36,336 nt of DNA from a virus. Shown piece after piece: positions 1 to 30,754 of this stretch; positions within the stretch are counted from its first letter, which is position 1; every line of letters begins with the position of its first letter. The translations under genes and the position numbers were made by a program. A model generated the notes under the pieces. The model saw nothing but the letters and a program-made list of their open reading frames with translations. It did not search any database and was not told the DNA's origin. The DNA lies in the IMG/VR virus record IMGVR_UViG_3300017593_001240, positions 1 to 36,336 of that record, one strand, 5' to 3'.

Positions 1-99
1 AAAGATGTTTTTTCAAAAGGCAGGGATTGATATATGGGAGGTTATTGAGGCAAGCAAGACCAAACCTTTTGGTTTTATGCCGTTTTATCCAGGCCCCGG
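1..99. repeat. Terminal direct repeat, left copy (assembly overlap of a circle)
   Basis: Bases 1-99 match bases 36238-36336 exactly by eye. The repeat lies inside a protein-coding gene and joining the two ends restores one uninterrupted reading frame. A 99-base overlap looks like an assembler k-mer overlap rather than a biological terminal repeat, so the molecule is best read as a 36,237 bp circle or a circularly permuted linear phage genome. Confidence 0.95.
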
Positions 100-607
100 T
101 TATGGCGGGCATTGCATTCCTGTGGATCCGTTCTATTTATATTGGAAAGCAAAAAAGTTAGGCATTGATTTAAATTTTATTAAGTATGCAGGAGAAACTA
201 ATACATATATGCCATATTATGTTGTTAAAAGGCTTGAAAATGCCTTAATGAAAAATGGGAAAAAATTGAAAGGAAGCAGAATCTTGCTTTTGGGTGTTGC
301 ATATAAAAGAGATATTGATGACATAAGAGAATCCCCCGCTTTAATTGTATTTGATATTCTTGAAAAAAGAGGCGCAAATGTTTTTTATTATGACCCGTAT
401 GTCAAAAGAATTGAAAGCAAGAGGCATAAAAGGATTATAAACAGGATTAAAAATTTAAGAAAAACAATAAAAAATGTTGATGCTTGTATTATTCTCACAG
501 ATCATACGAATGTGGATTATAAAATGATTTTAGAAGAGGCAAATCTTATAATAGATACGAGAAATGTTTTTAAACACGTAAATAAAATGAAGGTTTTAAA
601 AGCATGA
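1..607 (+). CDS. UDP-N-acetylhexosamine 6-dehydrogenase, C-terminal part (continues from 35531)
   Basis: This is the C-terminal part of a nucleotide-sugar dehydrogenase whose first part lies at 35531-36336; joined across the circle it is 437 residues, the usual length for WbpA/WecC-type enzymes. These oxidise the C6 hydroxyl of a UDP-N-acetylhexosamine to a carboxylate with two NAD+. The catalytic cysteine is visible in GGHCIPVDP (Cys274 of the joined protein), after PFYPGPGYGG. The C-terminal NAD/UDP domain shows GVAYKRDIDDIRESPAL and a YYDPYV motif. The frame is open from base 2; the ATG at base 5 is internal, not the start. The stop overlaps the next ATG (ATGA at 604). The exact substrate (GlcNAc, ManNAc or GalNAc form) cannot be settled by eye. 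Confidence 0.93.
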   Translation, partial: KMFFQKAGIDIWEVIEASKTKPFGFMPFYPGPGYGGHCIPVDPFYLYWKAKKLGIDLNFIKYAGETNTYMPYYVVKRLENALMKNGKKLKGSRILLLGVAYKRDIDDIRESPALIVFDILEKRGANVFYYDPYVKRIESKRHKRIINRIKNLRKTIKNVDACIILTDHTNVDYKMILEEANLIIDTRNVFKHVNKMKVLKA

Positions 608-891
608 CAAAATTGCACTTGACAAATATTTCAAAAAATGTTATATCTACATATATGAGGTATATGGTATTTTTTTTATGTTGTTTGGGTTGTCAAACGT
701 TGCCAAGCTATAAGCCTCCATCTACTTCTGTTATCCGACTTCAATACAATTTTTATGAAGACAAATGGGAATTTAATTACTTAGATTCAACATTTAAATT
801 TAACATCTATGAAAACAGATGGGAATACAACCCTTCATATTCAACATTGAAATTTAATATTTATGAAAATCGTTGGGAGTTTGTACCTTGA
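604..891 (+). CDS. Small repeat lipoprotein candidate
   Basis: A 95-residue reading frame starts at ATG 604, overlapping the upstream stop. A strong promoter (619-647) lies inside it, so the start used from that promoter is probably ATG 655 or 664. From there the product begins with a short hydrophobic segment ending LCCLGC-Q, a plausible though imperfect lipobox, followed by a Pro/Ser-rich linker. The rest is three copies of an 18-residue unit (residues 46-63, 64-81, 82-95) with the core FNIYENRWEY. I do not recognise the family. A small surface lipoprotein with its own promoter resembles in layout the receptor-blocking lipoproteins of some phages, such as T5 Llp, but nothing in the sequence proves that role. 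Confidence 0.6.
   Translation: MTKLHLTNISKNVISTYMRYMVFFLCCLGCQTLPSYKPPSTSVIRLQYNFYEDKWEFNYLDSTFKFNIYENRWEYNPSYSTLKFNIYENRWEFVP
619..647 (+). promoter_or_regulatory. Sigma70-type promoter P1 (extended -10)
   Basis: TTGACA at 619-624, a 17-base spacer, then TATATC at 642-647 preceded by TGT (639-641), an extended -10. It shares TTGACAAAT and TGTTATA at the same spacing with promoters at 30755 and 31988. Transcription would begin near 654, practically at the in-frame ATG 655, so the first message may be leaderless. It would drive the lipoprotein and the sugar genes behind it. Confidence 0.75.
739..888 (+). repeat. 54-bp tandem repeats coding 18-residue units
   Basis: Three adjoining coding repeats at 739-792, 793-846 and 847-888 (the last shortened) give the repeated core F-N-I-Y-E-N-R-W-E. 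Copies two and three are more alike than copy one at the protein level, and the DNA has drifted at third positions, so the duplication is not recent. Confidence 0.75.
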
Positions 892-1805
892 AATATTTTA
901 AGAGTTTTCAAAGTTATAGGCAGGCATGGGACAGGGCTTTTGAAAAGGACCCGTCAATTCCTTTAAATCTGGACATAGAATTATCAGCAGTATGTAATTT
1001 ACGTTGTCCTTTTTGCCCCCTTTCAAACCCCAACTGGAAAGCCCCCAAAGAAGAGTTTATACAGGTTATTCAAGCCATTAAAATTATTGCCAAGGCAAAT
1101 GAAATAGGGGTTCCAGCATTAAAATTCAATTGGATGGGAGAGCCCACATTGCATCCTGCTTTTAATATCATATTAGAATATGCTGCTTCAAAAGATTTCT
1201 ATGATTTGCTTGTTAATACAAATGGAAATTATAAACCAGAAAAAAATGAAGGCTTAATGTATGCAACAAAAGTTATGTTTAGTGTTGATAGCATGATTCC
1301 TAACATTTACAAACAATTGCGGCGTAATGGAGATCTATTTAAGGTGTTTTCTAATATTGAGGATTTGCTTAAAAGAGGCCATAAAAATATTGTAGTTCGT
1401 AGAGTTATTACGCCACAAAATAAAAAAGAGAATTTTGCAGAAATAGTTAAAACAGTTTTTGGCAATAAAGTGCAGGTGTCAGAACATTATGTTTTTGACA
1501 GAAACCCCGCAAAAAAATATCAGAAAAAAAAGGCTACTGAGTTCAAAAGGATATATTGCGGTTATCCATCTCAACGCCTGGTAATAGACACCCAGCTTAA
1601 TGTGTTTCCTTGCTGCGTGGATTATAACAAAGTTATGAAATTAGGCAATTTGAAACGAGATTCAATCATGGATATCTGGAATTCAAGAAAGTTGCAGACT
1701 ATTAGGGATAAATTGAGGCAGAACAAAATGCCTTCTCGGGTTTGTAAAAATTGCACCTCCTGGGCGAGTTATGACTCAGAGTATAGGAAAGCTGTATTCA
1801 AATGA
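888..1805 (+). CDS. Radical SAM / SPASM-domain enzyme
   Basis: This 305-residue protein carries the radical SAM cluster motif CNLRCPFC (CX3CX2C, about residues 36-43), which binds a 4Fe-4S cluster and S-adenosylmethionine. Near the C-terminus a SPASM/Twitch-like set of cysteines is seen (YCGYP, FPCCVD, then CKNC) together with the typical GNLKRDSIMDIWNS stretch. The start is placed at TTG 888, eight bases after a good GGGAG and overlapping the upstream stop; a TTG at 873 is also open but lacks a Shine-Dalgarno. Relatives act on peptides or on sugar and lipid precursors; several occur in surface polysaccharide loci. Its setting between a sugar dehydrogenase and a glycosyltransferase favours glycan work, but the substrate is unknown. 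Confidence 0.88.
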   Translation: MKYFKSFQSYRQAWDRAFEKDPSIPLNLDIELSAVCNLRCPFCPLSNPNWKAPKEEFIQVIQAIKIIAKANEIGVPALKFNWMGEPTLHPAFNIILEYAASKDFYDLLVNTNGNYKPEKNEGLMYATKVMFSVDSMIPNIYKQLRRNGDLFKVFSNIEDLLKRGHKNIVVRRVITPQNKKENFAEIVKTVFGNKVQVSEHYVFDRNPAKKYQKKKATEFKRIYCGYPSQRLVIDTQLNVFPCCVDYNKVMKLGNLKRDSIMDIWNSRKLQTIRDKLRQNKMPSRVCKNCTSWASYDSEYRKAVFK

Positions 1806-3160
1806 GAAATGATGCTTTAATAATTATATGTTCTACGCCGTATTCCCGGCGGTTGCCTAGAAAGTGCTTTTTAAATATTGGTGGCAGAACGGTTCTTGAA
1901 CACATATTTAACAGGATTAAAAATGTGGAAATACTGGTAGTATTGGCAATTCCATACAAAATAAGCGAAGATGATTATAAAAGATATTTAGATTTAGCTT
2001 CAAAATATGGTGCTTATTGCTGGCGGGGCTATGATGCCAGCCCGCTTCACAGGATGGCTGCGGTTGTAAAAAATTGGCAAAATATAGGATTATCAGCATT
2101 ACCAGAATATGTAATTCGTATAACTCATGATGATATTTTGATAGATGCCGAGACATTATTATACCTTCTGGAAGGTGTGATCATGGCAGATGCTGGATAT
2201 GGCATAACGCCAACCATTATTGAAGGCGCCGGGGTGGAAGTAATAAGCACAGAGAATTTATTATGGGCTGCACAACATCACAAAGACAATATTGAGGATG
2301 TATCATATTTTGTGAAAGGCAGGGGAGTTCCAAAATCTGATATTGTCAAACTTATCCCCCGCTCACAAATTCAAAGGCCATATAGATTAACGCTGGATTA
2401 TTATGAGGATTATGTAGTTCTTGAAAACGTGTTTCGGGAGGTGGGGGTGGATGCTTCATTGGATAAAATATGTGAATATCTGGATCTAAACCAATCAATA
2501 TTAGATTACAACAAAGCGCCAGAAATAACGCTTTATACCTGTGTTAGAAATGGTGCCAGATGGATACGCCACACCATAGAGGCCATAAAATCTTGCACAG
2601 ACAAAGAATACATAGTTGTTGATGATGCTTCAACAGACAGCACGCTCCATCAATTGCTTAAATATTATGGCCGTGAAAAAATTAAAATCCTGGTAAATAA
2701 TGAAAACAAAGGACTGGCAAGCTCCTCAAATATTGCTTTAAATCATGCTAGAGGGAAATATATAATGAGGATAGATGCTGATGATATTCTCATGGTTAAT
2801 TCCTTAAATAAAATGAAAGCAAAAATAGAGGAAACAGGCGCGGTAATTTGTTATGCTAATTATAACGAAATAGATGAAAAGGGCAATATAATAAGAAAAA
2901 ATGTATCTGCCAGAGAGAAACATCATATTGGTTGTGCGCTGATAAATAAGCGGTTCCTGAACGAATTAAGGTTCAAAGAGGGGCTCAGGCACTGGGATGG
3001 GCTGGAGCTTTATAATAGAATTAAAAATAATTTTCCAATTGCTTATATTGACGAACCTTTATGGTATTATCGTGTTCATAAGGATAGTTTAAGCAATAGT
3101 GATTTACAGGAAAGAGACAGAATAAGAAAGCAAATAGAGGGAAAGCAAGATGGTGAGTAA
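1802..3160 (+). CDS. SpsF-like cytidylyltransferase fused to GT2 glycosyltransferase
   Basis: The 452-residue product has two domains. Residues 1 to about 225 resemble SpsF-type CTP:sugar cytidylyltransferases: SRRLPRK near the N-terminus, then GGRTVLEHI and later VIRITHDDILID. Residues about 240-440 form a GT-A family 2 glycosyltransferase with TLYTCVRNG, EYIVVDDASTD, NENKGLASSSN and a DXD-type site in MRIDADD (near residue 323). SpsF relatives activate sugars, including nonulosonic acids, as CMP derivatives, and in Bacillus sps clusters stand beside the NeuB-like SpsE, as a NeuB-like gene does here two genes downstream. It starts at an ATGA overlap with the radical SAM gene. A single protein that activates and transfers the sugar is an inference. 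Confidence 0.85.
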   Translation: MRNDALIIICSTPYSRRLPRKCFLNIGGRTVLEHIFNRIKNVEILVVLAIPYKISEDDYKRYLDLASKYGAYCWRGYDASPLHRMAAVVKNWQNIGLSALPEYVIRITHDDILIDAETLLYLLEGVIMADAGYGITPTIIEGAGVEVISTENLLWAAQHHKDNIEDVSYFVKGRGVPKSDIVKLIPRSQIQRPYRLTLDYYEDYVVLENVFREVGVDASLDKICEYLDLNQSILDYNKAPEITLYTCVRNGARWIRHTIEAIKSCTDKEYIVVDDASTDSTLHQLLKYYGREKIKILVNNENKGLASSSNIALNHARGKYIMRIDADDILMVNSLNKMKAKIEETGAVICYANYNEIDEKGNIIRKNVSAREKHHIGCALINKRFLNELRFKEGLRHWDGLELYNRIKNNFPIAYIDEPLWYYRVHKDSLSNSDLQERDRIRKQIEGKQDGE

Positions 3161-3494
3161 AGCAGATACTTATAGTTTTTCAGCTTTATTGCAGCTTGCG
3201 AACTTAAAGAAAGCAGAATTAAATGTTTTTATTCGTATGCAAAGTGTAAGGCAAAACCTTGATATCCGCCGCCGGGTGCAGATGTCATTAGCTCAATACC
3301 GCAAAAAAATTCCTTTTGATATACAAATGAAACTGATAGCAATTACGCTTGAAATTGAAAAATATTGCCGAAGTTTTTTGATGACTGAATTTAGAAAGCA
3401 GGTTAAGCAAAAATACCCGTTGGCCAATGAATCCAAAATAAAAGCGCTAGCCAAGGCAAAAACTGAGTTATTTATGGCAAAATATGCTTACTGA
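3150..3494 (+). CDS. Hypothetical protein, basic and helical
   Basis: A 114-residue protein rich in Lys, Arg, Leu and Ala that should be almost all helix. I do not recognise it and see no signal peptide, membrane segment or cysteine motif. It overlaps the end of the glycosyltransferase gene by 11 bases and its stop overlaps the ATG of the following HTH gene, so it is translated as part of the same operon. A partner role to the adjoining regulator is possible but unsupported. Confidence 0.7.
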   Translation: MVSKADTYSFSALLQLANLKKAELNVFIRMQSVRQNLDIRRRVQMSLAQYRKKIPFDIQMKLIAITLEIEKYCRSFLMTEFRKQVKQKYPLANESKIKALAKAKTELFMAKYAY

Positions 3495-3727
3495 TGAAAT
3501 ATAGAATAATTTTAAACGGAGATAAAATAAGATTTATGGTGGCCAGAAAGAATAAAACACTTAATTGGCTTGCTAAAAAGCTAAAAATTTCGCAAAGTTA
3601 TTTATCTATGGCGTTAAATGGTAAAAAGTGTTTTAGCCCCAAAAAAAGGATAGAATTGCAAAGATTGTTTGGCAGAAAAGGAAGCTGGGATAATTTATTC
3701 GTTGTACAAGAGGAAGATGTTTCATAA
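3494..3727 (+). CDS. Cro/XRE-type HTH DNA-binding protein
   Basis: A 77-residue protein made almost entirely of a lambda-repressor-like helix-turn-helix: LNWLAKKLKISQSYLSMALNG is the helix 2/turn/helix 3 region, here in two pieces LNWLAKKLK and ISQSYLSMALN. There is no dimerisation or peptidase domain. The ATG overlaps the upstream stop (TGATG). It is the only Cro/CI-like protein in the genome and lies in the sugar module rather than beside the replication genes, so it could regulate this module or act as the phage's Cro-like switch. Operators are not identified. Confidence 0.75.
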   Translation: MKYRIILNGDKIRFMVARKNKTLNWLAKKLKISQSYLSMALNGKKCFSPKKRIELQRLFGRKGSWDNLFVVQEEDVS

Positions 3728-3740
3728 AAAGGAGGAATAA

Positions 3741-4520
3741 ATGTCCATTAAATCTGGAACGGCTTACATAACCACTACCAATACTGATACGAATATTGTT
3801 TGGCAATATGGGGCACTTGATAACATAAAGTTGCCTATTATTATTGCAGAATGTGGTAACAATCATATGGGAAATATGAATTTTGCTTTTGAACTTCTTA
3901 ATGCAGCCAAAGAATCAGGAGCTGATTTAGTCAAGTTCCAGGCTGGCTCTGCAAAAGGATTTGCCAGAGATAAAAGCCAGATAAAACGATATAAGCAATT
4001 TGAGCTGGGCCTGGCTAATTATAAAAGACTCATTGAATATGGGCATAAGATAGGCATTCCAGTATTTTTCTCAATATGGGGTGAGGGATTTGATGAATTA
4101 CGCGAAATGGAGCAATTTCATAAGATTGCAGCCCGACAATGCAACCAGGATAATATAGAGAAATATGATTCAGAAAATACTTTTATATCTGTTCCTAAAA
4201 ATGCTCAAATTATTTATGAACCAGACAAAAAATATAAATCAATATTTATGCATGTGGTTTCAGAATACCCAACATATGACCCGCAACTCAGCAGAATAAA
4301 GTTTTTGCAGCAGATATTTGATAAAGTTGGTTATTCTGACCATACAATAGGCATATCGTCTTGTATCACGGCCGTGAAGGATTTTGGGGCAATTGCTATT
4401 GAAAAGCATTTCACATTGCCTAAATTAAGGGCAGAATATGGGCATGTTTTTAGGGACCATAAGCATAGCGCAACCCCAGATGAATTCCAAATAATGAGCA
4501 TTATTTTGCGAGGAGGGTAA
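3741..4520 (+). CDS. Short NeuB-like sialic/nonulosonic acid synthase
   Basis: A 259-residue protein of the NeuB/SpsE/PseI family, which condenses phosphoenolpyruvate with an N-acetylated amino sugar to make a nonulosonic acid. Seen are AECGNNHMGN (residues 36-45), GADLVKFQ, VGYSDHTIGIS, IEKHFTL and DHKHSATPDEF, the conserved strand ends of the TIM barrel. Usual family members are about 340-350 residues; this one stops after the barrel and lacks the C-terminal SAF/antifreeze-like domain, and the middle of the barrel is also shortened. It has a strong ribosome site (AAGGAGG) and codon use like its neighbours. It may be an active trimmed form or use a modified substrate; activity is uncertain. 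Confidence 0.85.
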   Translation: MSIKSGTAYITTTNTDTNIVWQYGALDNIKLPIIIAECGNNHMGNMNFAFELLNAAKESGADLVKFQAGSAKGFARDKSQIKRYKQFELGLANYKRLIEYGHKIGIPVFFSIWGEGFDELREMEQFHKIAARQCNQDNIEKYDSENTFISVPKNAQIIYEPDKKYKSIFMHVVSEYPTYDPQLSRIKFLQQIFDKVGYSDHTIGISSCITAVKDFGAIAIEKHFTLPKLRAEYGHVFRDHKHSATPDEFQIMSIILRGG

Positions 4521-4522
4521 CA

Positions 4523-5836
4523 ATGAGATGTTATGTATGTGATGGTAATGATTGGGTATGGAGAACGGATTTGTATCCTGAAAAGAGAGTTGGAATTTGT
4601 AAAAAGTGTGGTAATGTTGCATTTGAAGTAGATCCAGCAGATGAAATCAAACTTAAGGAATTTTACAAAAAAGAATATAGGAGCGGTGAGCCAGGAGCAG
4701 GAATTATTATTACCACTACTCATAAATTAAATTACATAAAGATTTTTTTGTCAGATTGGCTAAAAGACAAAAAGAATTTAGTTATCACCGATTGGGGAGC
4801 GTCCTCAGGATATCTTGCAGATTGGTTTAGAAGGATGGGGCACAGAGCCACCGGGGTAGAATGGACTACAACATTAAGGCGTTTTTCAGAGCATTATTAT
4901 GGCATTCCGCTCACTGAGGACATCCAGGAAAAGCACAGATATGATTTAATTGTATTTTATCACACATTGGAACATATGATTGAGCCTGATAAAAAATTAA
5001 AAAAAGCTGTTTCATTATTAAGTGACAATGGTGCTATTATGGTGTCAACTCCTGAATGGTTCAATGTTCTGGAAAATCTAGCGCAAATTGGTGATTTAAC
5101 AGTAGAAAATTATTTCCATAAAAATCACATCAATTGTTTTTCAAGAACATCGTTAAAAAATCTGTTCATGAAATGCGGCTTGAAAATTATAAAAGAGGAA
5201 TTTCGAACATTAGGCCAGACATATTTGTTAGTCAAAGACAAAGAGAGCAAAGTCCCACCGCCAATTGTAGTTGAGCCCTGGAAAGAACAAATGGAAAAAA
5301 TTGATAAAATTAAAGCAGCAATTCAAGCCTATCAAAAGCTCCGCTACAAAGATGCTATAGATATATGGTTTAATTTTCCTGATGCTCACGTGCGTCTCAT
5401 TTTTGATTTGTATAAAAAAGAGCCAGACAGGCAAAAACATGAATTTGATAAGATATTACAAACAGAAGTGGGAAAAAGCTATAAAGTCCTTATAGCTTAT
5501 GCTATATGGCATTATCAAAACGCTAAATATGAGGAAGCGCTAAAACTTTTTGACGAAATTTTGTCAACATATCCTAATGAGGATTTATTTGTTTATGCAG
5601 GATGGACGCTGGAACGGCTAGGGAGATACAGAGAAGCCATGATGGCATTTCAAAAAGCTATCCAGCTCAACCCACAAAAATGGACCGAATGCATGAATTG
5701 GATAGGGCATTGTGCTGCCCAATTGCCAACCTGGGATGAGCGGGCAGAAGAGCAGATTAAAGAACAACTATTTCAGCAAGTTGATGGTAAATCAAAGATA
5801 AAATTAAATGACCCTTATATGGATAAAAAAGAATAA
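4523..5836 (+). CDS. Zinc-ribbon class I methyltransferase with C-terminal TPR domain
   Basis: The 437-residue protein begins with a zinc ribbon (CYVC at residues 3-6 and CKKC at 26-29), as in sugar C-methyltransferase-type proteins. A class I SAM-binding domain follows, with motif I TDWGASSGYLADW near residues 89-101 and a later FYHTLEHM loop typical of the Methyltransf_23 group. From about residue 260 it becomes a helical repeat region, including a clear TPR pair (ALKLFDEILSTYPNEDLF, then YREAMMAFQKAIQLNP). It starts two bases after the NeuB-like stop, behind AGGAGGG. By setting it may methylate the sugar nucleotide or the finished glycan; the TPR tail may bring it to a protein partner. Confidence 0.83.
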   Translation: MRCYVCDGNDWVWRTDLYPEKRVGICKKCGNVAFEVDPADEIKLKEFYKKEYRSGEPGAGIIITTTHKLNYIKIFLSDWLKDKKNLVITDWGASSGYLADWFRRMGHRATGVEWTTTLRRFSEHYYGIPLTEDIQEKHRYDLIVFYHTLEHMIEPDKKLKKAVSLLSDNGAIMVSTPEWFNVLENLAQIGDLTVENYFHKNHINCFSRTSLKNLFMKCGLKIIKEEFRTLGQTYLLVKDKESKVPPPIVVEPWKEQMEKIDKIKAAIQAYQKLRYKDAIDIWFNFPDAHVRLIFDLYKKEPDRQKHEFDKILQTEVGKSYKVLIAYAIWHYQNAKYEEALKLFDEILSTYPNEDLFVYAGWTLERLGRYREAMMAFQKAIQLNPQKWTECMNWIGHCAAQLPTWDERAEEQIKEQLFQQVDGKSKIKLNDPYMDKKE

Positions 5837-5841
5837 ACGCC

Positions 5842-6312
5842 ATGGGTGCCGGCAAGAAAAGAACTAGACGGATTAATTGGCTTAAAATAAAACAGGAATA
5901 TATGAGCAGCACAAAACCGCTGTCTGCCATTTTAGCAAAATACAAGGTATCAAGAGGGCGAAATACTCAAAACCATACTGCAGGCTGGATAGAGGAAAAA
6001 AAGCAACTTCAAAATCAGGTTATATCCAAAATCAAAAACAAAGTAGTAAAAAAACAAATTAAAGAGTGGGAAAGACAGCAGAAGCTATGGAAAGACATAG
6101 AAATACAGGCAGCCAAGATTCTGAAAAAATATTCTAATCAGAATATGACTATAAGCCCTAAAGATTTAGCCAGTTTAGCTTCAGCAATTCAAACCGCATT
6201 AAAATCACAAAGATTAATCAAAGGAGAATCCACAGAAAACATTGATCAAAGAAATATACATTTGGCTATAGTTGATATAATAGAAACAGCAGAAAAAGAG
6301 GCAGAAAAATGA
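5842..6312 (+). CDS. Terminase small subunit candidate
   Basis: A 156-residue protein directly upstream of the packaging genes. Its N-terminus is basic and then shows a helix-turn-helix-like segment (NWLKIKQEYMSS, then PLSAILAKYKVSRG) of the type used by small terminases to recognise packaging sites, followed by a long charged coiled coil. The family is suggested by this pattern and by position rather than by a unique motif. It starts three bases after the methyltransferase stop, with no obvious Shine-Dalgarno, so it may depend on coupling. Confidence 0.7.
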   Translation: MGAGKKRTRRINWLKIKQEYMSSTKPLSAILAKYKVSRGRNTQNHTAGWIEEKKQLQNQVISKIKNKVVKKQIKEWERQQKLWKDIEIQAAKILKKYSNQNMTISPKDLASLASAIQTALKSQRLIKGESTENIDQRNIHLAIVDIIETAEKEAEK

Positions 6313-6557
6313 ATGATTTTAAGTCAGAATTTACCAGGGGCTTGGAGAAGGCAAATTTAAAGCCTTTTCAATTTGCTGATTGCATAAGATGGGCGTTTGG
6401 TAATATTGGTAAAGAGAAAATGAGAATTCAGGATCTAATTGAAAGATGGAACAGTAAGCATGGGGATATATTTCGCATTTCATTGGAAGATGATATTCGA
6501 GAAACCGCTAAAGCAATAGGCAATGCCTGGCGGAAAGTTGTTAACAATGACAGATAG
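6309..6557 (+). CDS. Hypothetical protein between terminase genes
   Basis: An 82-residue soluble-looking protein with no recognised motif. It overlaps the small terminase by four bases (ATGA) and its end overlaps the large terminase start, so it is firmly in the packaging operon. It could be a terminase accessory factor; that is inferred from position only. Confidence 0.7.
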   Translation: MNDFKSEFTRGLEKANLKPFQFADCIRWAFGNIGKEKMRIQDLIERWNSKHGDIFRISLEDDIRETAKAIGNAWRKVVNNDR

Positions 6558-8121
6558 ACAGAAAAAAATAGCTGATAAATATTGGCGGCTTCAACATCTT
6601 TATAAGATCAAAGATAAAAACAAGAGAATAATCAATATGAAATTTAATCGTGTACAACAAATAATAGCAAACGATATTTTGCATCAGCATCCAATTCGTC
6701 ATTTTACTTTGAAATACAGGCAGGCGGGGGTGAGCACCTTCTGGCTTCTTTATTATCTTGATGATACTATATTCCACCGCAATGTTACCACAGGAATTCT
6801 TGCGCACAAATGGGAAAGCCTTACTTATTTATGGGACATTATTAAATTGGCATTTAAATATTTACCAGACAGAATCAAGCCGCGGCTTGGAACTGAATCT
6901 GCTAAAGCTTTGGAATTTAAAGATATAAATAGCAAAATATTTATTTCATTAAGTGTGCGTTCTGCTGGGCTTCATAATTTGCATATAAGCGAATGGTGTT
7001 TTTGTCGTGATGAAGAAATTGAAGCCACCCTTGGCGCCACTTCACCGCTAACAAACATATCAGGAGAAAGCACGGGTAATGGAGTGGGAAATCATGGATA
7101 TTTTACATATCAAGATGGCAAGACAGGGGATAATGAATATAAAGTTAGATTTTTCCCATGGTTTTTTCAAGATGAATATCGGCTTCCATTAAAAGGCATG
7201 GATCCTGAATATATTATGCGCAATTTAAATCAAGAAGAGAAAGAGTTGCAAAAATTGTTAAGAGAGGAATATTCAATGGAACTGGAGCCTTCACAAGTAT
7301 TATTTCGCAGACAAAAGAAAAGAACACTTAAATCAACATTCCCACAGGAATATCCAGAGACAGATGAAGATGCTTTTATAACTTCAGGTTCTCATTTTTT
7401 TAATAACAAGAAATTGTTGGCTTTGCTTAATGAGGCCCGGGAATGGCATAGGGAGGAAAAATATTTTAAGAAAACTGATGATTATATATGTTTTGAGCCC
7501 CCCAATAAAGAGGACTTTTTTGTGGCCGGTGCTGATACTTCTGAGGGGGTTGATGATTATTCTGTATTAAAAATAATTAATGTAACCAAGCGCAGAGAAG
7601 CTTTTGTATATAGGGCTCGTTGTGGAATTAAAGAATTTTATCAAGTATGCAATGAATGGGGGCGAAAATACAATAATGCCCTGCTTGCAGTAGAGGATAA
7701 CAATACAGGCCATGCTGTGCTTTTGGGCTTGGTAGAAGATTGCAAATATCCTAATTTGTATAAAGAGCGTAAAGCTACAAGGTTAAAAAAAGACAAAATT
7801 AAGTTTAAATTAGGTTGGCATACAGATAAAATCTCAAGAACGCTACTTTTGAACGATTTGAAGTATGCTATCGAAGAGGATGATAATATAGATGTTGATC
7901 ATTTTTTGCCAGAATTTACAATTTTTGATTTAAACCTTTTGAAAGAAGGTTTGACTTTTATTAAAAATAATACTAAATTTGAAGCAGAAGCTGGCAAATA
8001 TGATGATGATATATTTGCAACGGGGATTGCTTTTCAACTTTATAAAGAATATAAATATGTTGATAGCAGAAAAACATATAAAGGAGTGTTAATTGGTGCC
8101 ACACGTGAGGCAAAAATATAA
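6547..8121 (+). CDS. Terminase large subunit
   Basis: The 524-residue ATPase/nuclease motor that packages DNA into the prohead. The ATPase shows the terminase-type Walker A loop YRQAGVST near residues 57-64 and a Walker B-like LHISEW. The RNase H-like nuclease has an aspartate in GADTSEGVDD near residue 328, an acidic VEDNNTGHA strand and a final KYDDDIFA aspartate cluster. ATG 6547 is preferred as start; an open ATG at 6523 lacks a better ribosome site and would overlap the previous gene further. The end overlaps the portal gene by 26-29 bases. Confidence 0.92.
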   Translation: MTDRQKKIADKYWRLQHLYKIKDKNKRIINMKFNRVQQIIANDILHQHPIRHFTLKYRQAGVSTFWLLYYLDDTIFHRNVTTGILAHKWESLTYLWDIIKLAFKYLPDRIKPRLGTESAKALEFKDINSKIFISLSVRSAGLHNLHISEWCFCRDEEIEATLGATSPLTNISGESTGNGVGNHGYFTYQDGKTGDNEYKVRFFPWFFQDEYRLPLKGMDPEYIMRNLNQEEKELQKLLREEYSMELEPSQVLFRRQKKRTLKSTFPQEYPETDEDAFITSGSHFFNNKKLLALLNEAREWHREEKYFKKTDDYICFEPPNKEDFFVAGADTSEGVDDYSVLKIINVTKRREAFVYRARCGIKEFYQVCNEWGRKYNNALLAVEDNNTGHAVLLGLVEDCKYPNLYKERKATRLKKDKIKFKLGWHTDKISRTLLLNDLKYAIEEDDNIDVDHFLPEFTIFDLNLLKEGLTFIKNNTKFEAEAGKYDDDIFATGIAFQLYKEYKYVDSRKTYKGVLIGATREAKI

Positions 8122-15635: not shown

Positions 15636-16625
15636 ATGCCAGTAGTATTAACCTGGAAAGATGTTCAGAATCAAAGTGAAGCTGTATTTAAGCAGTTTGG
15701 AGAAAAAGTATGGATACCGAATGCTAAAAGGAATGCACAACTTCCTCGCCGAGATCCTGAGGAATTGCACAACACAGGGATTGGAAAACATTTATTGCTA
15801 GTTGCAATTGGAGCCAGTCTTGAGGAAAATATAGAAACAATTAAAAAATATAGAGATAGAGTAGAAATTATGACGTGTGATAAGGGATTTGAGTTGTTAC
15901 TTAAGCATGGAGTTAAAGCAGATTATGTAATGCTTTGTGATGCCAATATACCTTTTACATGGATCAAAGATTCGATCAATGAGACAAAAGATGTAAAACT
16001 AATTGCAACACCATATGCAAACCCAGAATGGACTGAAAATTGGAAAGGTGACAGGTATTTTATGATAAATAAAGATGCTTTGGAAACTGAAAAAATATTT
16101 ATTGACATATTTAAAGACAGATTTAGAATTATTCCTGCCGGCTCTAATGTATCAAATGCTATGTTAATTTTTGTAACTGGTTCAGATGAATATCAAAATA
16201 TTAACTGGGCTGGCTATGAAAGATACATTTTGGTTGGATATGATTATAGTTGGCGGCCTGATGGCAATTATTATGCCTGGAAAAACCCCATACCTAAACG
16301 CTATTATATGCATCACAGAACGGTTCTGGATTTTAATAGCACACCAGCTTTTACAAGTGAGAATCTTTTATTTTCTGCAAAATGGCTTTATTCATATATT
16401 ACTGTTTACAATTTACCGGTGGTAAATTGCTCAGGACGGGGATTGCTTGATATTCCGCAAAAAAATTCATTAGAAAATGAATTGATGCAGATAAATACAA
16501 GCAATATAAAGCAATGCAGGGATACATTTGAATTAATGCAGCATGCTTATCAAACATTTATGAGCAGTAAGAAAATGTTTGAGGAAAGCAGAAAAATGCT
16601 TTATACTAGAATAAATAGGAGGTAA
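15636..16625 (+). CDS. DUF115 / MptE-Maf-like protein inside the tail operon
   Basis: A 329-residue protein of the DUF115 family. It shows LLLVAIGASLEEN (residues 53-65), CDKGFELLLKHGVKADYVMLCD, here given as GFELLLKHGVKADYVM plus LCD, a PAGSNVSNAM motif and RYILVGYDYSW, matching the conserved strands and nucleotide-site loops of that family. Members include archaeal MptE pterin diphosphokinase and bacterial Maf glycosyltransferases that attach nonulosonic acids to flagellin. The gene sits 8 bases after the tail terminator and 5 bases before the tail tube, with its own AGGAGG, so it is made with tail proteins. With NeuB-like and SpsF-like genes in the same genome, transfer of an acidic sugar to a tail or host protein is an attractive inference. 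Confidence 0.82.
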   Translation: MPVVLTWKDVQNQSEAVFKQFGEKVWIPNAKRNAQLPRRDPEELHNTGIGKHLLLVAIGASLEENIETIKKYRDRVEIMTCDKGFELLLKHGVKADYVMLCDANIPFTWIKDSINETKDVKLIATPYANPEWTENWKGDRYFMINKDALETEKIFIDIFKDRFRIIPAGSNVSNAMLIFVTGSDEYQNINWAGYERYILVGYDYSWRPDGNYYAWKNPIPKRYYMHHRTVLDFNSTPAFTSENLLFSAKWLYSYITVYNLPVVNCSGRGLLDIPQKNSLENELMQINTSNIKQCRDTFELMQHAYQTFMSSKKMFEESRKMLYTRINRR

Positions 16626-16630
16626 AGAAA

Positions 16631-17665
16631 ATGGCAATTGGACAGAATGCAAAAACAGGAGCAAGATCTTATGTGGCTTTGATGATTGAACCTAGTTTTG
16701 GAAGTTTTCCAGCAACCAGTTCCTCTTACACCCATACTCTGGAATTTTTAAGCCTGGGGATTAAAACAGAAATAGCAAGCACAAAGCTGGATACAATTTC
16801 TGGCAACAGAGGCTTTACAAAAAGAGTGCAACTGGATAAGAATGTGGGAGGGACTTTGGAACAGTACTTACATCCGACAGAATCGCCAATTTTATTGGCA
16901 GTAACATTAGGCGGTGGAATATCTACCACAGCCAACACTAATACGGGTGCAACAGTATGGACCCACAGCATTTCTGCAGGTAATTTTGACAACACAATTT
17001 CTAGCATTGGAATGCAAGTTAGAAAAGGAGATGCACATCACTGGCAGTATGCAGGTGGGCGAGTCAATGTTTTAACAATTACCGGCACTATTGGAGAGCC
17101 TGTAAAGTGTTCTTATGAAATGGTTTTCAAGGACAGCACACAGGCAGGCACAGATATTTCTAGCAGTTTAAGCATAAGTGCTGTTCTGCCATTTACCTAT
17201 GTTCAAGGCAGCTATAGATATGCCGGCTCAGAATCAAGTTTAACTTCATCTGCAGCTGAACATATCACAGATTTTGAGCTAACTATTAATAACAATTTAG
17301 TTAGCGATGCTGGAGTGAGGTCTCTTGGATATAATACAATTCAAGCTTTGCCAGCAACACGCAGAGAAGTGTCTTTGAAAATTACTCAGAGATTTGACAC
17401 CACTACTGCCTGGGAGAGGTTTATACAAAATACTCAGGGGGCAGTTGAGCTTTATTTTGAAGGCAGTTCTATTACTTCAGAGGAAAATTATTCCTGCAAG
17501 ATAATTATGCCTAAAGTATATCTCAACACTCCTGATGTGGAAATAGGTGGAGCCAATGAGATCTTGAAAAGCGAAATCGAGTTTGATGTCCTGGTTGACA
17601 ACCCCTCAACTTCAACAGGAAGAGATATAGGAATTACGATAGTTAATGATGTTTCTGGCTATTAA
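16631..17665 (+). CDS. Major tail tube protein
   Basis: A 344-residue beta-rich protein, Ser/Thr-rich, just before the frameshifted chaperone and tape measure, where siphophages keep the tube gene. Seen strands include SYVALMIEPSFGSFP, GGTLEQYLHPTESP and VNVLTITGTIGEPVKCSYEM, with symmetric repeats suggesting a duplicated tube fold (about 170 residues per half). Strong ribosome site (AGGAGG). The many exposed Ser/Thr residues would suit O-glycosylation, but no modification is shown. Confidence 0.82.
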   Translation: MAIGQNAKTGARSYVALMIEPSFGSFPATSSSYTHTLEFLSLGIKTEIASTKLDTISGNRGFTKRVQLDKNVGGTLEQYLHPTESPILLAVTLGGGISTTANTNTGATVWTHSISAGNFDNTISSIGMQVRKGDAHHWQYAGGRVNVLTITGTIGEPVKCSYEMVFKDSTQAGTDISSSLSISAVLPFTYVQGSYRYAGSESSLTSSAAEHITDFELTINNNLVSDAGVRSLGYNTIQALPATRREVSLKITQRFDTTTAWERFIQNTQGAVELYFEGSSITSEENYSCKIIMPKVYLNTPDVEIGGANEILKSEIEFDVLVDNPSTSTGRDIGITIVNDVSGY

Positions 17666-20176: not shown

Positions 20177-20929
20177 ATGGCAGTAATGGAATTTTTGAAA
20201 GCGAATTATTTGAATACTACAACGATGGTTAAGGTGGATAGTAATACAGCGCTTACGAAATATTTGTTTAATAGAAATCCCGATTTGGGATACACAACAG
20301 ATGGTTATAACTCAAATACATCTGCAACAATTTCAATTGAATTTGGTTCAACAATGCCAGTGAGTAATATATTAATTCAAAATCATAATCTGAAAAAATT
20401 TAGCTTATTTTATGATTCTAATACTGCCAACGCAATAGCGAGCTTCACAACAAATTCAGATAATTCAATTTATTTATCTTTCAGTACTATCCAGGCAACT
20501 TCAATTCAATTGCAAATGGATGAAACAATATCAGGAAATGCCGAAAAATCTGTTGGAGAATTAATCTTGTCAGAAAGAAAATTAGCTTTTGATGTCAATC
20601 CCTCTCAATCGTTATTTAACCCTATTATTATGCGAAAACAAATTGTTCATAATATGCCTGACGGCGGAGTTGTAACTTACAATATTAAAGATAAATACCA
20701 GGCCAAAATTGGATTAAGATATATCTCAACTTCTTTCTATAATAAGCTTTTAAGCGTCTTTGAAGACGCAGAACCAATGTATTTTGTGCCTTTTCCCACC
20801 GCCACTTCATGGGATGGCAAAGCATATGAAGTTGTGTGGGTAGATAAATTTGATTTTAAATTTGCAGATAATGCTAAAAACACATATTCAGGAAATATAT
20901 TAATAAAGGAGACTCCAAGTGCAGGATAA
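20177..20929 (+). CDS. Distal tail protein candidate
   Basis: A 250-residue beta-rich protein directly after the tape measure, the usual place of the distal tail (Dit) gene. The first 130 residues look like a discoidin/lectin-like sandwich (SVSNILIQNHNLKKF-type strand, seen as VSNILIQNHNLKKF), the rest contains GLRYISTSFYNKLL and a SWDGKAYEVVWVDKF end. The exact family is unclear. It overlaps the fibre gene by 11 bases. Confidence 0.65.
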   Translation: MAVMEFLKANYLNTTTMVKVDSNTALTKYLFNRNPDLGYTTDGYNSNTSATISIEFGSTMPVSNILIQNHNLKKFSLFYDSNTANAIASFTTNSDNSIYLSFSTIQATSIQLQMDETISGNAEKSVGELILSERKLAFDVNPSQSLFNPIIMRKQIVHNMPDGGVVTYNIKDKYQAKIGLRYISTSFYNKLLSVFEDAEPMYFVPFPTATSWDGKAYEVVWVDKFDFKFADNAKNTYSGNILIKETPSAG

Positions 20930-23900
20930 AATAAAGAAAATAATTTTATTGTTTGGGTTCATAAGCTGTATTGGATTTTCACTCAGCGCTGCGGAATTGG
21001 GGTCCGGTGCTGGAAGTGATTATCCAAATGCTATTGATACTGATGACGCCAAAGAAATAGATAATGTTACTATTGCCCGTGATGATGTACCCAATGACGC
21101 AAATGCGGCTATTATAGCAATAGAGACAGAACTTGGAATAAATCCATCAGGAAGTGCGGCCACAGTGGCTGAAAGATTAGACGCAATTGCAGAATCTACA
21201 ACTACTGCTTATGATGTGTTTGTCAACACAACAGGTGATAAAATGAGTGGGCAATTGGATTTGGGGAATTATGCCTTACTAACATCAAGTTCAATTATAG
21301 GAGTTTCTAAAATTGAATGGGCAGATGGCACAGTACAGGTTTCATCGTCGACGGGAGATAATCTTGGGAATCATACTGCGACACAGGACCTGAATATGAA
21401 TAATTACGGAATTACAAATGTCTCAACAATAACATTAACAAATGGTACAACAAGTACTATTATACTTGATGGTGGAAATGGAACGATGTTAATTGAAAAA
21501 ACAAACAGTGGCTCTGCTGATTTGAATGATTATACCATAAGGGCAAATGGTGAAAATGCTTATTACAATATACTTGGATATGGAGGCATGAGTGCAGTTG
21601 CGGGTTATCAACCTGATGATGGGGCATCTACCACAAAAGGTATCTATGGACGAGGCAGTGATTATGGGACTGGCGTATATGGGACGACTTTATATGGAAC
21701 AGGCGTAAAAGGTTATTCTTATGATGGGAAGGCAATTTATGGAGAAGTGTCTGATAAGAGTAAGGGATATGCAGGATATTTTGAAGGTAAGGTATATTCA
21801 GATACGGGGTTTATAGGGAATTGTTCATCTGCGACTTGGTCAGCAACAGCGAGTTCTGCAACTTATTTATTGGGAACAAATTATGATATTAGTGTAAGCA
21901 CATCTGAATATGCAAAAATTTCAAGCACAGCAACCTATGCGGAAAGTGTAAATTACAATGTTTTAGTGGCTTCTGCCGATTATGTTTCAGGCACAATATC
22001 ATCTGCGACTTATGCGGAAAATAGTGACAAACTTGATGAATTGGACAGCACGGATTTTCTATTTCTGAACCAGTCTGCAACACAGACAGTTATAAATGGA
22101 ATTCCCTTGCTGGATACAACCCCAAATGGTAGTGTTGACATCAAGAGTTTTGTCAATAAGGAATATGTGGATTTTGCGGTTACTTCTTTGGGTTCAGCAT
22201 ATTATATGTATGATGAAGATGACGCAACTGGATACAAGACCTGTTATTTAACTCCGTCAACAGGAACAGAGACATATATTGAAAAGGCAAGTTTGACGGA
22301 TAACGATTACATAGGCGGTTGGATTTCAGCGGGAGATGAAGCACCACAAAAACTTCTCAAAGGAGTTTATAATTGGTATCTCACAGCGGAGAAAACCGCA
22401 GGGACGCAGGATTTAAGAATTTACTGGGAATTGATTGAGAGAAAATCAGACACAACAGAGATAGTTATATCAACAAGTTCAAATAGCAATTTAATCATAG
22501 ATAAAGGAGCATATCTTATACCATTACAATTAAATGAGGATTATATTCCCGATACAGGAAGCAGAATAGTAGGAAAACTTTATGCCGATGTTTCTGGAAA
22601 TGGGAACGCTCCAACAGTAAGGATATATTATCAGGGCAACACTTCAAGCAGATGGGAAATACCAGCAAATAGTGAGGTGTTTCAAGATATTTTTGTTCCA
22701 TACGAAAATGCGACAAAGGATATTGACTTGAATGAAAAACAAATCACAAATATAAGCACGATAACATTTACAGACGGGACAAGTATGACTTCCACAACTA
22801 CTTTCTTGGGAAAGAATGAGAAAGCAAGTGATAGTGATAAATTGGATGGATATAACTATGATTATTTTCTATCAACAGATAGCAAAAATGTTTCATTTTC
22901 AACAGTAACATTTGCAGACGGGACATATATGACCTCAACGACTACTTTCTTGGGAAAAGATGAAAAGGCAAGCGATAGTGATAAATTAGATGGATATAAT
23001 TATGATGAATTTGGTAGATTATCAGCAGAAAATGTATGGACAGAAAAAAACATTTTTAGAGATGACGGAGCAGAAGGGTTGTATATTCAGGCGGGTCAAT
23101 ACCCTGAAGGAGTAAATAGAGACCCTATGATAAGAATAGTATGTGATGGAGAGTATGGTTATGTGGGGGGAGACCATTATTTTGTTGGTGAGAAACAAAC
23201 CTTAAAGGGCATAATTCTTTCAGGTCACGATTTACCATATACTAGAGATTTGTTTATATCAACTACAAGCAAAATAGGAATACAAACTGTAGAACCTACT
23301 GCTGGTTTTGATGTGAATACAGATGTAAAAATAAGAAATGAATTAAATTTAACAGGTAGTTTGACGGTAGGTTCTGAAGGAGTAGGACATCCTATTATTT
23401 TTTATACAGATAGGTCATCACCTTATTGGAGATTTAAAATACACGACACAAAAAATAGTTTATCATTTGGTTTACTACAAAATGAAACTGATATTGGAAA
23501 TTATGCTTGTCAAATAGGTTTGGGGGCTGAAGCAAATGGTGATTATGCTATAGCATTAGGACGAGATGCAGTTGCTCCTCATAGTGGTTCAATAACAATA
23601 GGTTATAATTCTGTTGCAAATGGAATAAATTCATTAGTTTTAGGGTATGAAAGTTGGGTTAGTGATTCTTCTTATGAAAATTCAATAGCAATTGGGAAAT
23701 GGCTTGAAGTAGGGGCTTCTAATAACATAGTAATAGGTATAGGTGCTTCTCAAACAAATAAACTTGCTAATTCGCAACCTTATACAATTATGATGGGGGT
23801 AACATCAACACCAACAATGGTAATAGCAAAAAGTTCTGTTTCTTTTGAAGGAGCAAAACTTATCAATGTCTCCACCTCACCCGTCAACAACAGCGATGTT

Positions 23901-25574
23901 TCCACAAAAGGATATACCGATTATGCGATAAGACAAGCGACAGTTTCTCTTATTTCTACTGGCGGTTTATCCGCAAATTGGGATGCAGGGGATTATCAGA
24001 TACACATTTCCACAATCAGAGCCGATGGTTCAAAAGGGTTATATCTCCTTGACGACGGCGGGAACGGGATATTTGTGGAAGACGGGGGGAATATTGGGAT
24101 TGGGACGGATAATCCTTCTTTTAGTCTAATAAATAAGAATGGATTAGAAATTGAAGCCGTAGGTGATTATTTTCCTGGAATAAGGATAGAAAGAACTGGA
24201 GGTTCTGCAAAAACAAATAATGCTTGGGAATGGTTTGTAGGAACCCCAGGTGGATTAGGCTTGCGAGATGTAAGCACTGGTGTTCAACCTTTCGCAGTCT
24301 TAATGGGGGCTGATGCAGATAGTCTTGTTATAGATAGTAGCGGAAACGTGATAATGAATGGGGGAAATGTGGGGATTGGGACGGATAATCCTGATTATCT
24401 ATTAGATATTGAAAAAAATCAAGATACTCAGACAATTTTTAGGATTTCTAATAATAGTAATAGTTCTTCTGGAGGCGAAAGGATTGTTTTGAGAGAAAGT
24501 GATACCAAATATTTCTATATGTTTAGATTGAATTCAGACGATAAGTTTTATATGAAAAGTTATGATGGCACAACATATAGAAACATAATGATTTTACAAG
24601 AGGATGGCAACGTCGGCATTGGGACAACGGAGCCGGTGGCGAAGTTGGATGTTAATGTTGCCGCAAATTCAAGTGATGGATTATTCATCGGTAATGTAGA
24701 GTTTAGATATTCAACTGCAGAGAATAATTTTGTCATTGAACATGGGGATGATACTGGCAATTTCTTTATTAGAAGCATGGAAGCAGGAGATACTTCTGGA
24801 AATTTAATTTTAAATGACCAAGGAGGTGACGTCGGCATCGGAACGACAAGTCCAGAACATCCGTTAGAGATAGAGAGTAGTAATGTTGAACTTTTGAAAT
24901 TAGAGCGAACAGTATCTGGAAGTGCGTCTTTTATGACTTTTGAAAATGGGGATAATTATCAAGTTAATTTGGGACTTGGTGGAGATGAAGTTTTTAGTAT
25001 TTACAATCCAGCGAGTGGTGACAGTGGAACAACAAGAGTTCTAAATATAGATACAGATGGTGAGGTTGGAATTGGGGATACTACTCCGAGTTATGATTTA
25101 GATGTTTCGGGCGACATTCACTGCACGGGAAAACTTACTTCTGATGGCGGTAATGACCCTCCGTATATTCTATACAACTATGAGACGAGAAAAAGCATAA
25201 TAGAAAGAGTAAAGCAAGAAGTCACACCAGATAAACTCAACGGGGCGGTGATGTTTTACAATGGTGAGGCAAATAGAATGGAATTGTATTTGCCAAGCAA
25301 GGGAGAGTTCAGGAATTTGCGGGGAAATTTACTTGCTTCTGTTGAACCGATAACAAAAACATTTGAGACAAAAACAAAGTATTACTTTGACAGGAAAACG
25401 GGCGAAGTCAAGGCAATTCAAGTGCCTGTAAAGAGTAGAAAATTCAAAATAAAGAAAGGATATGAGTTCAACAGCGAAGATGGGCAATTTTATGAAATAG
25501 TCAAGTCAACAACGGGAGAGGTTATGAAAAAAAAGAAAGTGTCAAAAGACAAGGCAGTGGAGGTGTTGAAATGA
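20919..25574 (+). CDS. Giant tail fibre / adhesin with signal peptide and NVGIGT repeats
   Basis: A 1551-residue protein starting at GTG 20919 behind GGAG. Residues 1-25 look like a Sec signal peptide (KKIILLFGFISCIGFSLSAAE), here IILLFGFISCIGFSLSA then AE, rare in a tail protein. Next is a phage-fibre-like part (AAIIAIETELGINPSGS), SSATYA repeats, a duplicated block from residue 616 (TFTDGTSMTSTTTFLG and a near copy), a YadA/Hep_Hag-like head region at about 865-955 (AIALGRDAV, SITIGYNSV, SIAIGKWL), and five G-[NED]-[VI]-GIG units near residues 1058, 1150, 1231, 1305 and 1384. The end is Lys-rich and has no S74 chaperone motif seen by eye. It likely binds the host surface as a trimer; the signal peptide raises the chance that it is displayed by the host cell instead. 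Confidence 0.8.
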   Translation: MQDKIKKIILLFGFISCIGFSLSAAELGSGAGSDYPNAIDTDDAKEIDNVTIARDDVPNDANAAIIAIETELGINPSGSAATVAERLDAIAESTTTAYDVFVNTTGDKMSGQLDLGNYALLTSSSIIGVSKIEWADGTVQVSSSTGDNLGNHTATQDLNMNNYGITNVSTITLTNGTTSTIILDGGNGTMLIEKTNSGSADLNDYTIRANGENAYYNILGYGGMSAVAGYQPDDGASTTKGIYGRGSDYGTGVYGTTLYGTGVKGYSYDGKAIYGEVSDKSKGYAGYFEGKVYSDTGFIGNCSSATWSATASSATYLLGTNYDISVSTSEYAKISSTATYAESVNYNVLVASADYVSGTISSATYAENSDKLDELDSTDFLFLNQSATQTVINGIPLLDTTPNGSVDIKSFVNKEYVDFAVTSLGSAYYMYDEDDATGYKTCYLTPSTGTETYIEKASLTDNDYIGGWISAGDEAPQKLLKGVYNWYLTAEKTAGTQDLRIYWELIERKSDTTEIVISTSSNSNLIIDKGAYLIPLQLNEDYIPDTGSRIVGKLYADVSGNGNAPTVRIYYQGNTSSRWEIPANSEVFQDIFVPYENATKDIDLNEKQITNISTITFTDGTSMTSTTTFLGKNEKASDSDKLDGYNYDYFLSTDSKNVSFSTVTFADGTYMTSTTTFLGKDEKASDSDKLDGYNYDEFGRLSAENVWTEKNIFRDDGAEGLYIQAGQYPEGVNRDPMIRIVCDGEYGYVGGDHYFVGEKQTLKGIILSGHDLPYTRDLFISTTSKIGIQTVEPTAGFDVNTDVKIRNELNLTGSLTVGSEGVGHPIIFYTDRSSPYWRFKIHDTKNSLSFGLLQNETDIGNYACQIGLGAEANGDYAIALGRDAVAPHSGSITIGYNSVANGINSLVLGYESWVSDSSYENSIAIGKWLEVGASNNIVIGIGASQTNKLANSQPYTIMMGVTSTPTMVIAKSSVSFEGAKLINVSTSPVNNSDVSTKGYTDYAIRQATVSLISTGGLSANWDAGDYQIHISTIRADGSKGLYLLDDGGNGIFVEDGGNIGIGTDNPSFSLINKNGLEIEAVGDYFPGIRIERTGGSAKTNNAWEWFVGTPGGLGLRDVSTGVQPFAVLMGADADSLVIDSSGNVIMNGGNVGIGTDNPDYLLDIEKNQDTQTIFRISNNSNSSSGGERIVLRESDTKYFYMFRLNSDDKFYMKSYDGTTYRNIMILQEDGNVGIGTTEPVAKLDVNVAANSSDGLFIGNVEFRYSTAENNFVIEHGDDTGNFFIRSMEAGDTSGNLILNDQGGDVGIGTTSPEHPLEIESSNVELLKLERTVSGSASFMTFENGDNYQVNLGLGGDEVFSIYNPASGDSGTTRVLNIDTDGEVGIGDTTPSYDLDVSGDIHCTGKLTSDGGNDPPYILYNYETRKSIIERVKQEVTPDKLNGAVMFYNGEANRMELYLPSKGEFRNLRGNLLASVEPITKTFETKTKYYFDRKTGEVKAIQVPVKSRKFKIKKGYEFNSEDGQFYEIVKSTTGEVMKKKKVSKDKAVEVLK
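22764..23007 (+). repeat. Direct duplication within the fibre gene (144-bp offset)
   Basis: About 100 bases from 22764 recur from 22908 with scattered, mostly synonymous changes, giving TFTDGTSMTSTTTFLG and TFADGTYMTSTTTFLG, then KASDSDKLDGYNYD in both. The 144-base offset is exactly 48 codons, so the frame is kept. Such duplications lengthen fibre shafts. Confidence 0.8.
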
Positions 25575-26490: not shown

Positions 26491-26946
26491 ATGAGAAAGG
26501 TTTTAGTATTTGTTTTTTTGTTTCAAAATCTTTATGCTTTTTCTTTGCTTGGTGGACTTTCACCTAAAATGTTCAATAAAAGAATAAATGAATTAGAAAA
26601 TGCAACCCAAAAACAATTCTCGGATATTAAAGCAGGAATAAATGATGTTCAGATTAAACTGGGAAAAATTGAGACCAGAATAAATGCAAATGCAAATGTA
26701 ATGGCACAGATTAAGGCAGGATATGACCGCTCAAAAAATATATCTGCTGGCAGGGATGTTATTCAAAAAACATCTGTTGTAAACGACCCAGAATTGCTAA
26801 AATATATCATAGGCGGATTATTAGCAATAATAATGTATATGTTAAAAGATTTGTTTGCTACGAAAAAGTATCTTTACAATGCATTAGCAAGTAAAAAAGA
26901 ATGGAAAGAAAGGGCATTAAAAAATGAAAATCAAAAGAATATGTAA
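26491..26946 (+). CDS. Signal-peptide, coiled-coil, membrane-anchored protein
   Basis: A 151-residue protein with an N-terminal signal-like segment (VLVFVFLFQNLYAFSLL), a coiled coil (RINELENATQKQFSDI...), and one membrane helix near residues 108-128 (YIIGGLLAIIMYMLKDLF) followed by a basic tail. Start is ATG 26491 after AAAGGAGG; an in-frame ATG at 26473 precedes that ribosome site. A periplasm-spanning lysis function (spanin-like) is possible, but no established family is recognised. Confidence 0.65.
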   Translation: MRKVLVFVFLFQNLYAFSLLGGLSPKMFNKRINELENATQKQFSDIKAGINDVQIKLGKIETRINANANVMAQIKAGYDRSKNISAGRDVIQKTSVVNDPELLKYIIGGLLAIIMYMLKDLFATKKYLYNALASKKEWKERALKNENQKNM

Positions 26947-30747: not shown

Positions 30748-30754
30748 AAAAGAC

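Follow-up and report, generated by a model that had tools for sequence, protein, structure and literature searches.

The window analysed here is a 36,336-bp stretch of viral DNA, the whole IMG/VR entry IMGVR_UViG_3300017593_001240, which is classed as linear and is probably a fragment of a phage genome. Upstream of its terminase genes lies a gene cassette that a first-pass annotation had described, together with a DUF115 gene in the tail operon, as a phage-borne system for making, activating, and attaching an acidic ulosonic sugar. The named cassette genes are intact open reading frames (ORFs) on the plus strand, each with a significant Pfam profile match. All of the enzymes listed in that annotation are present, but its range of 604-5836 misses the dehydrogenase at 2-607, and its gene set, otherwise an accurate description, leaves out two ORFs at 3150-3494 and 3494-3727. 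The features are as follows.

2-607, plus strand: uridine diphosphate (UDP)-sugar (HexNAc/Glc-type) dehydrogenase, C-terminal 201 amino acids (aa), truncated by the window end (PF03720 9e-26, PF00984 1.5e-19)
604-891, plus strand: 95-aa lipoprotein-like ORF, non-core, unrelated to the dehydrogenase
873-1805, plus strand: radical SAM/SPASM enzyme (rSAM), core (PF04055 1e-12; SPASM PF13186 1.6e-14)
1802-3160, plus strand: SpsF-type cytidylyltransferase (residues ~1-232) fused to a family 2 glycosyltransferase (GT2, ~240-440), core (PF02348 CTP_transf_3 1.5e-7; PF00535 8.9e-24)
3150-3494, plus strand: 114-aa conserved cassette ORF (o114), with a similar ORF in the related phage L009 (47%), in L096, and in the DRGL contig
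3494-3727, plus strand: small HTH_3 (helix-turn-helix, HTH) protein (PF01381 2e-5), retained in L009, L012, L095, and DRGL
3741-4520, plus strand: NeuB-superfamily phosphoenolpyruvate (PEP)-dependent ulosonic-acid synthase without SAF domain (PF03102 1.4e-24)
4523-5836, plus strand: zinc-ribbon class I methyltransferase with C-terminal tetratricopeptide repeats (MT-TPR), core (PF13489 Methyltransf_23 2e-15, TPRs)
5842-8121, plus strand: terminase region, with TerS at 5842-6312 (assigned by position), an ORF at 6309-6557, and TerL at 6523-8121 (PHROG terminase matches)
15636-16625, plus strand: DUF115/MptE-like protein (PF01973 3e-20)
16631-17665, plus strand: tail tube protein (PF18906 5.9e-24)

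The terminase region is followed by a Mu-type portal/F fusion, a ChaB-domain protein, the capsid, DUF115, the tail tube, and the tape measure. The HTH_3 protein at 3494-3727 is likely a regulator, and in distant relatives the place of o114 is taken by an ORF of 119-128 aa.

Exact-peptide scans of viral contigs for NeuB and SpsF-GT2 gave no match, and two-row profiles then recovered relatives. A scan for relatives with TerL found none. Scanning with DUF115 returned six viral loci sharing the structural gene order. In one of them (L004), an MT-TPR gene precedes the terminase, and the full record of this locus, L009, has rSAM, SpsF-GT2, o114, HTH, NeuB, and MT-TPR in the order of the window at 47-62% identity, compared with mostly ~70-77% for its structural genes. 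A second sister phage, L012, has the same cassette arrangement, and in both the terminase is placed as in the window. The part of L009 that precedes rSAM contains ordinary phage-type ORFs, with no dehydrogenase among them. The dehydrogenase, which the first-pass annotation had counted in the set, is therefore peripheral and was dropped from the core. Between L009 and L012, the ratio of nonsynonymous to synonymous substitution rates (dN/dS) is 0.046 for NeuB, 0.069 for MT-TPR, 0.14 for rSAM, and 0.22 for SpsF-GT2, next to 0.047 for TerL and 0.071 for the portal. Because these values are low, the cassette genes are maintained by selection, which on NeuB is purifying to an extent comparable to the terminase.

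Profile scans brought the number of DUF115 loci to 45, with identities of 33-100%; the lineage is one of tailed phages known from uncultured material. The genes for rSAM, SpsF-GT2, and MT-TPR also occur in distant members: in G008, G009, and G018 they precede the terminase, and in G020, G025, G029, G030, G032, and G035-G038 they follow the tail genes. Every one of the 16 distinct phages whose contigs reach the region has the cassette (partial in two, G013 and G025), and an MT-TPR ortholog is present in every cassette read to its end. The contigs of G022, G040, and G043 stop short of the place of their clade's cassette, and no loss is claimed for them. DUF115 and the cassette co-occur in nearly all relatives of sufficient length, and the main splits of the portal, SpsF-GT2, and MT-TPR trees agree. 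The same gene order in independent phages excludes chance as the cause of the block. The cassette is vertically inherited and phage-owned, not a stray host insertion.

The surroundings of the cassette vary. At L095:2102-3496 (-) and L097:5354-6574 (-), the terminase large subunit has seemingly been replaced by unrelated terminases, with the adjacent cassette retained, and at L099:11136-12398 (-) a ParB-like/DNA methyltransferase fusion is inserted between MT-TPR and the terminase. Two genome scans for a host yielded only the L101 contig, from a 'Pricia antarctica' metagenome-assembled genome (MAG; HyVt-345), which is phage-like throughout and was rejected as a host assignment. L112/L113 (DRGL01000039.1), which binning had placed in a 'Pricia antarctica' vent MAG, is phage-like throughout, carries a NeuB-type cassette, and is likely a mis-binned or associated virus.

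DUF115 scores 73.1 bits against PF01973 (cut-off 34.6), and its ORF is intact, at 324-350 aa, in 28 of 28 cases checked. The gene lies directly upstream of the tail-tube gene. Its stop is at most 150 nt from the tail-tube match in 41 of the 42 loci whose downstream side could be read (most gaps between -28 and +25 nt), and the capsid is no more than 3.5 kb upstream in 39 of 39. An AlphaFold model built from 28 sequences (predicted local distance difference test, pLDDT, 93.6) finds its best structural match in Magnetospirillum Maf (5mu5, residues 233-520), with a Z of 22.3 and 3.6 A over 254 residues. The next matches are archaeal MptE, a pterin diphosphokinase (Z 16.7), and then the cytidine monophosphate (CMP)-sialyltransferases ST8SiaIII (10.5) and CstII (~9). 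Profile comparison likewise gives E 3.8e-6 for Maf and 0.09 for MptE. DUF115 has the Maf catalytic-domain fold but, as a stand-alone domain of 329 aa, is not a full multi-domain Maf (NF050051 34.4 versus 670). On this modelled structure, it is a putative transferase, the catalytic domain of a Maf-type glycosyltransferase.

The NeuB of the window consists of the barrel alone (259 aa) and matches PF03102 with 87.4 bits (gathering score 22.1). Its model (pLDDT 85.7) is closest to 6ncs, a Leptospira synthase of 290 residues (Z 27.7), and also matches NmNeuB (Z 26). Residues E37, K65, Q67, K128, Y176, S199, H201, E221, and H223 align to catalytic residues of NmNeuB or the family, the metal-binding histidine pair included; the NmNeuB counterparts are E25, K53, Q55, K129, Y186, S213, H215, E234, and H236. 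The catalytic residues are also kept in L009, L012, and DRGL. In 12 phages, however, the gene preceding MT-TPR encodes an enzyme like 3-deoxy-D-arabino-heptulosonate 7-phosphate (DAHP) synthase, mostly of ~270 aa, in place of NeuB (PF00793 6e-48). Its best NCBIfam match (1.5e-80) falls under the cut-off (271 versus 335 bits). This enzyme shares the fold family of DAHP synthase type I-beta, and full-length copies keep the metal-ligand motifs G-[PS]-C, D-x-S-H, E-x-H, and D-x-x-Q, while that of G009 is shortened and divergent. Where true DAHP synthases have the substrate motif KPRTSPYSFQG, it has RAGTYPGxxxG, and it does not qualify as a curated DAHP synthase. Reading the ~270-aa ORF as a diverged NeuB was rejected, as Pfam assigns it to the DAHP synthase family.

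NeuB, DAHP synthase, and 3-deoxy-D-manno-octulosonate 8-phosphate (KDO8P) synthase have one fold and one reaction type, the conversion of PEP and an aldose to a 3-deoxy-ulosonic acid, and structure comparison supports the kinship of NeuB with this class. Because both synthase types share fold and reaction, the conserved element is a PEP-dependent ulosonate synthase with a CMP-transferase, whatever the sugar. As far as sequence can tell, a change of synthase in this slot would imply the same chemistry and a different sugar. The nonulosonic acid named by the first-pass annotation thus stands as an inference for the small NeuB-bearing clade, but the remaining relatives have the DAHP-synthase-like enzyme. 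Since NeuB is confined to the clade of the window, G001, G007, and DRGL (portal tree support 100/98), apart from an extra copy in G020, a single replacement is the simplest history. G020 has both synthases, and its NeuB-like copy is without both metal histidines. At L086:4787-5470 (+), a NeuB-like ORF next to an intact DAHP-synthase-like gene has lost the metal-binding histidines (YKDKT, EKNIT) and is probably a dead or repurposed paralogue. One bacterial Maf can place either Neu5Ac or KDO on Ser/Thr, taking the sugar from its CMP form (PMC11339370). By analogy, a transferase as tolerant as that Maf would accept the products of either synthase, which would fit the swap.

The remaining enzymes also keep their motifs. 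The SpsF domain (PF02348, 31.9 versus 22.6 bits) has the S-x-R-[LI]-P-x-K signature as SRRLPRK; S15, R17, and K21 are invariant in an alignment of 14 rows, and most cassettes show a recognisable form of the signature. The GT2 domain (PF00535, 84.7 bits) has its DxD motif as DADD in the window and as D[AS]DD in 15 of 15 phages checked. In rSAM, the cysteines of CxxxCxxC (CNLRCPFC) and of SPASM (C229, C247, C248, C291, C294) are kept in 15 of 15 phages. The first-pass annotation had made its proposal depend on working active sites in the NeuB-like and SpsF-like proteins, and the motifs tested are intact, with the SAF domain absent. A scan of the cassette proteins for a hydrophobic stretch typical of a membrane span found none, which fits a system that works in the cytoplasm ahead of assembly. 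In SpsF-GT2, the cytidylyltransferase half (residues ~41-160) shows just 38-70% identity between L009:4451-5767 and L012:4651-5970, phages otherwise ~95% identical, which may reflect recombination or diversification of sugar specificity.

We favor the explanation that the phage makes a CMP-ulosonic acid and that DUF115 attaches it to a protein of the virion, with the tail tube as the likeliest candidate, as a phage-owned protein glycosylation, and give it a probability of roughly 0.6. The NeuB-type synthase would convert PEP and a (probably amino-) hexose to a 3-deoxy-nonulosonic acid, which the SpsF domain would charge with CMP. The rSAM enzyme and the methyltransferase may tailor the sugar, and the GT2 domain may add or extend the glycan. 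DUF115, as a stand-alone Maf catalytic domain, would place the ulosonic acid on Ser/Thr of the virion protein, giving a particle coated with acidic sugar. The pathway class is well supported, and we infer the exact sugar, the order of tailoring, the acceptor, and the benefit. That the cassette directs CMP-ulosonic acid synthesis is predicted with good confidence, and the putative acceptor is likely a protein in the virion; for the tail tube in particular, the chance is a little short of even. More tentative still is a broader proposal, in which a Maf-type O-glycosylation system belongs to the virus lineage itself. These phages would produce the CMP-ulosonic acid themselves, sugar-coat the tail tube as an integral step in building the virion, and diversify the coat through exchange of the PEP-dependent synthase (C7/C8-type versus C9-type) and variation in the CMP-transferase.

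Several points weigh against the favored explanation. The pathway is predicted from gene families, motifs, and folds, the tail tube is put forward as acceptor from gene order only, and the Ser+Thr content of the tube (22.7%), which we judged too weak as proof of an acceptor, is non-specific. The window NeuB is not a canonical NeuB/PseI equivalog, having no C-terminal SAF domain (TIGR03569 97.9 versus 399.65). In NmNeuB, an important residue of that domain is Arg314 (PMC6795526), and because the domain with the key arginine of characterised NeuBs is absent, the identity of the product is uncertain. However, nine aligned NeuBs from other viral records are also short, and the best fold match, 6ncs, has 290 aa. 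MptE also matches DUF115 in fold. It is conceivable, though rather improbable, that DUF115 has no part in the cassette and serves in tail assembly or as a pterin/nucleotide kinase, with the sugar of the cassette used elsewhere. Viral entries in BFVD name DUF115 relatives 'MptE-like', and several kb separate the tail operon from the cassette; yet Maf is clearly the better match by structure and by profile, and the two parts co-occur across the lineage.

The same sugar pathway could instead act on a host structure, such as a surface glycan, flagellin, or pilin, for receptor masking or superinfection exclusion. Serotype conversion is a frequent role of GT2 genes in phages (PHROG moron annotations), and flagellin is the natural Maf substrate (PMC11339370). 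We consider this unlikely, given that DUF115 sits within the head-tail operon against the tube gene and that the cassette has no obvious membrane protein, with no flippase or polymerase recognised among the annotated genes. The first-pass annotation had left open whether the sugar coats the virion, masks the host receptor, or alters the host glycan; gene order favors a virion protein, and host-glycan alteration is the less favored. Phage glycosyltransferases can glycosylate DNA, according to work cited in PMC12619734, but a sugar hypermodification of phage DNA is very improbable here: the DUF115 transferase resembles a protein O-glycosyltransferase, and a nucleotide-modifying partner was not recognised among the Pfam matches. 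Least probable of all, and already contradicted, are recently captured or decaying host genes with no selected function. NeuB and SpsF are common in bacteria, as control genomes show, but here gene order is conserved, the trees are congruent, and selection is purifying. The decayed insertion in a single genome that the first-pass annotation had raised is at odds with conservation across the lineage.

Elsewhere in the window, the dehydrogenase at 2-607 matches TIGR03026 (2.7e-54) slightly below its cut-off. The ORF at 604-891 has no match in a Pfam search; it has a lipobox and a repeated W-containing motif, NIYENRWEF, and a weak homologue in a related phage (L098:5337-5537). A large YadA-head tail-fibre ORF (20919-25574) starts with a signal-peptide-like hydrophobic stretch, unusual for a virion protein, and its start codon may be wrong. 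An HNH protein with repeated zinc-binding modules lies at 26924-27760, and two calcineurin-like phosphoesterases stand in succession at 30055-31722.

The closest known counterpart is Maf-dependent flagellin glycosylation with pseudaminic or legionaminic acid, which likewise combines a NeuB-superfamily synthase (NeuB/PseI), a CMP-transferase, and a DUF115 transferase gene adjoining that of a tubular structural protein. The phage system differs in being phage-encoded, with a bare DUF115 domain, a NeuB without SAF, and SpsF fused to GT2; it adds rSAM and MT-TPR, has the tail tube for flagellin, and its synthase is swappable with the DAHP-synthase-like enzyme. In Caulobacter, the NeuB pathway also goes with a TPR that binds the acceptor, as the TPR of FlmG binds flagellin (PMC7591256). 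There the TPR is on the glycosyltransferase, a GT-B rather than DUF115, whereas in the phage it is on the methyltransferase; by analogy, the phage TPR may bind the acceptor protein. A precedent is the phage-encoded glycosylation of capsid and tail-tube proteins reported for mycobacteriophages (Che8/F1 cluster; Freeman et al. 2023, as cited by PMC11256854 and PMC12619734); the two citing sources describe glycosyltransferases in these phages and name no ulosonic-acid synthase or Maf-like gene. Large phages (L055-L063) combine NeuB and a PF02348 cytidylyltransferase in one viral record but are different phages with a different gene order. The CTP_transf_3 gene is present in all nine of these records and DUF115 above cut-off in none. 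They are unrelated viral records whose SAF-less NeuB and CMP-transferase represent a broader class of ulosonic-acid genes in viruses, distinct from the present one. Because they are without DUF115, the NeuB-SpsF-DUF115 trio is particular to the present lineage, within the data searched. Among annotated phages, tblastn found no DUF115 homologue, and a search for NeuB gave only two distant matches.

Phage virion glycosylation is documented in few systems only. The first-pass idea of a phage able to make, activate, and attach an acidic ulosonic sugar is supported by lineage-wide conservation, catalytic motifs, the Maf-like DUF115 fold, and the coupling to the tail tube. It is correct in substance, and the finding is larger than first stated: the glycosylation cassette belongs to a whole lineage, is of the Maf/NeuB kind, and has an interchangeable synthase, but it is not a new category. 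If true, these viruses would have a complete pathway of their own for sialic-acid-like sugars, operated by a flagellar-type protein glycosyltransferase and sufficiently conserved to count as a core feature of assembly. The exchange of NeuB and the DAHP-synthase-like enzyme would be a natural experiment in sugar swapping, and the cassette offers compact, apparently soluble candidates for protein glyco-engineering. It also suggests that viral proteins tagged 'MptE-like pterin kinase' may be glycosyltransferases.

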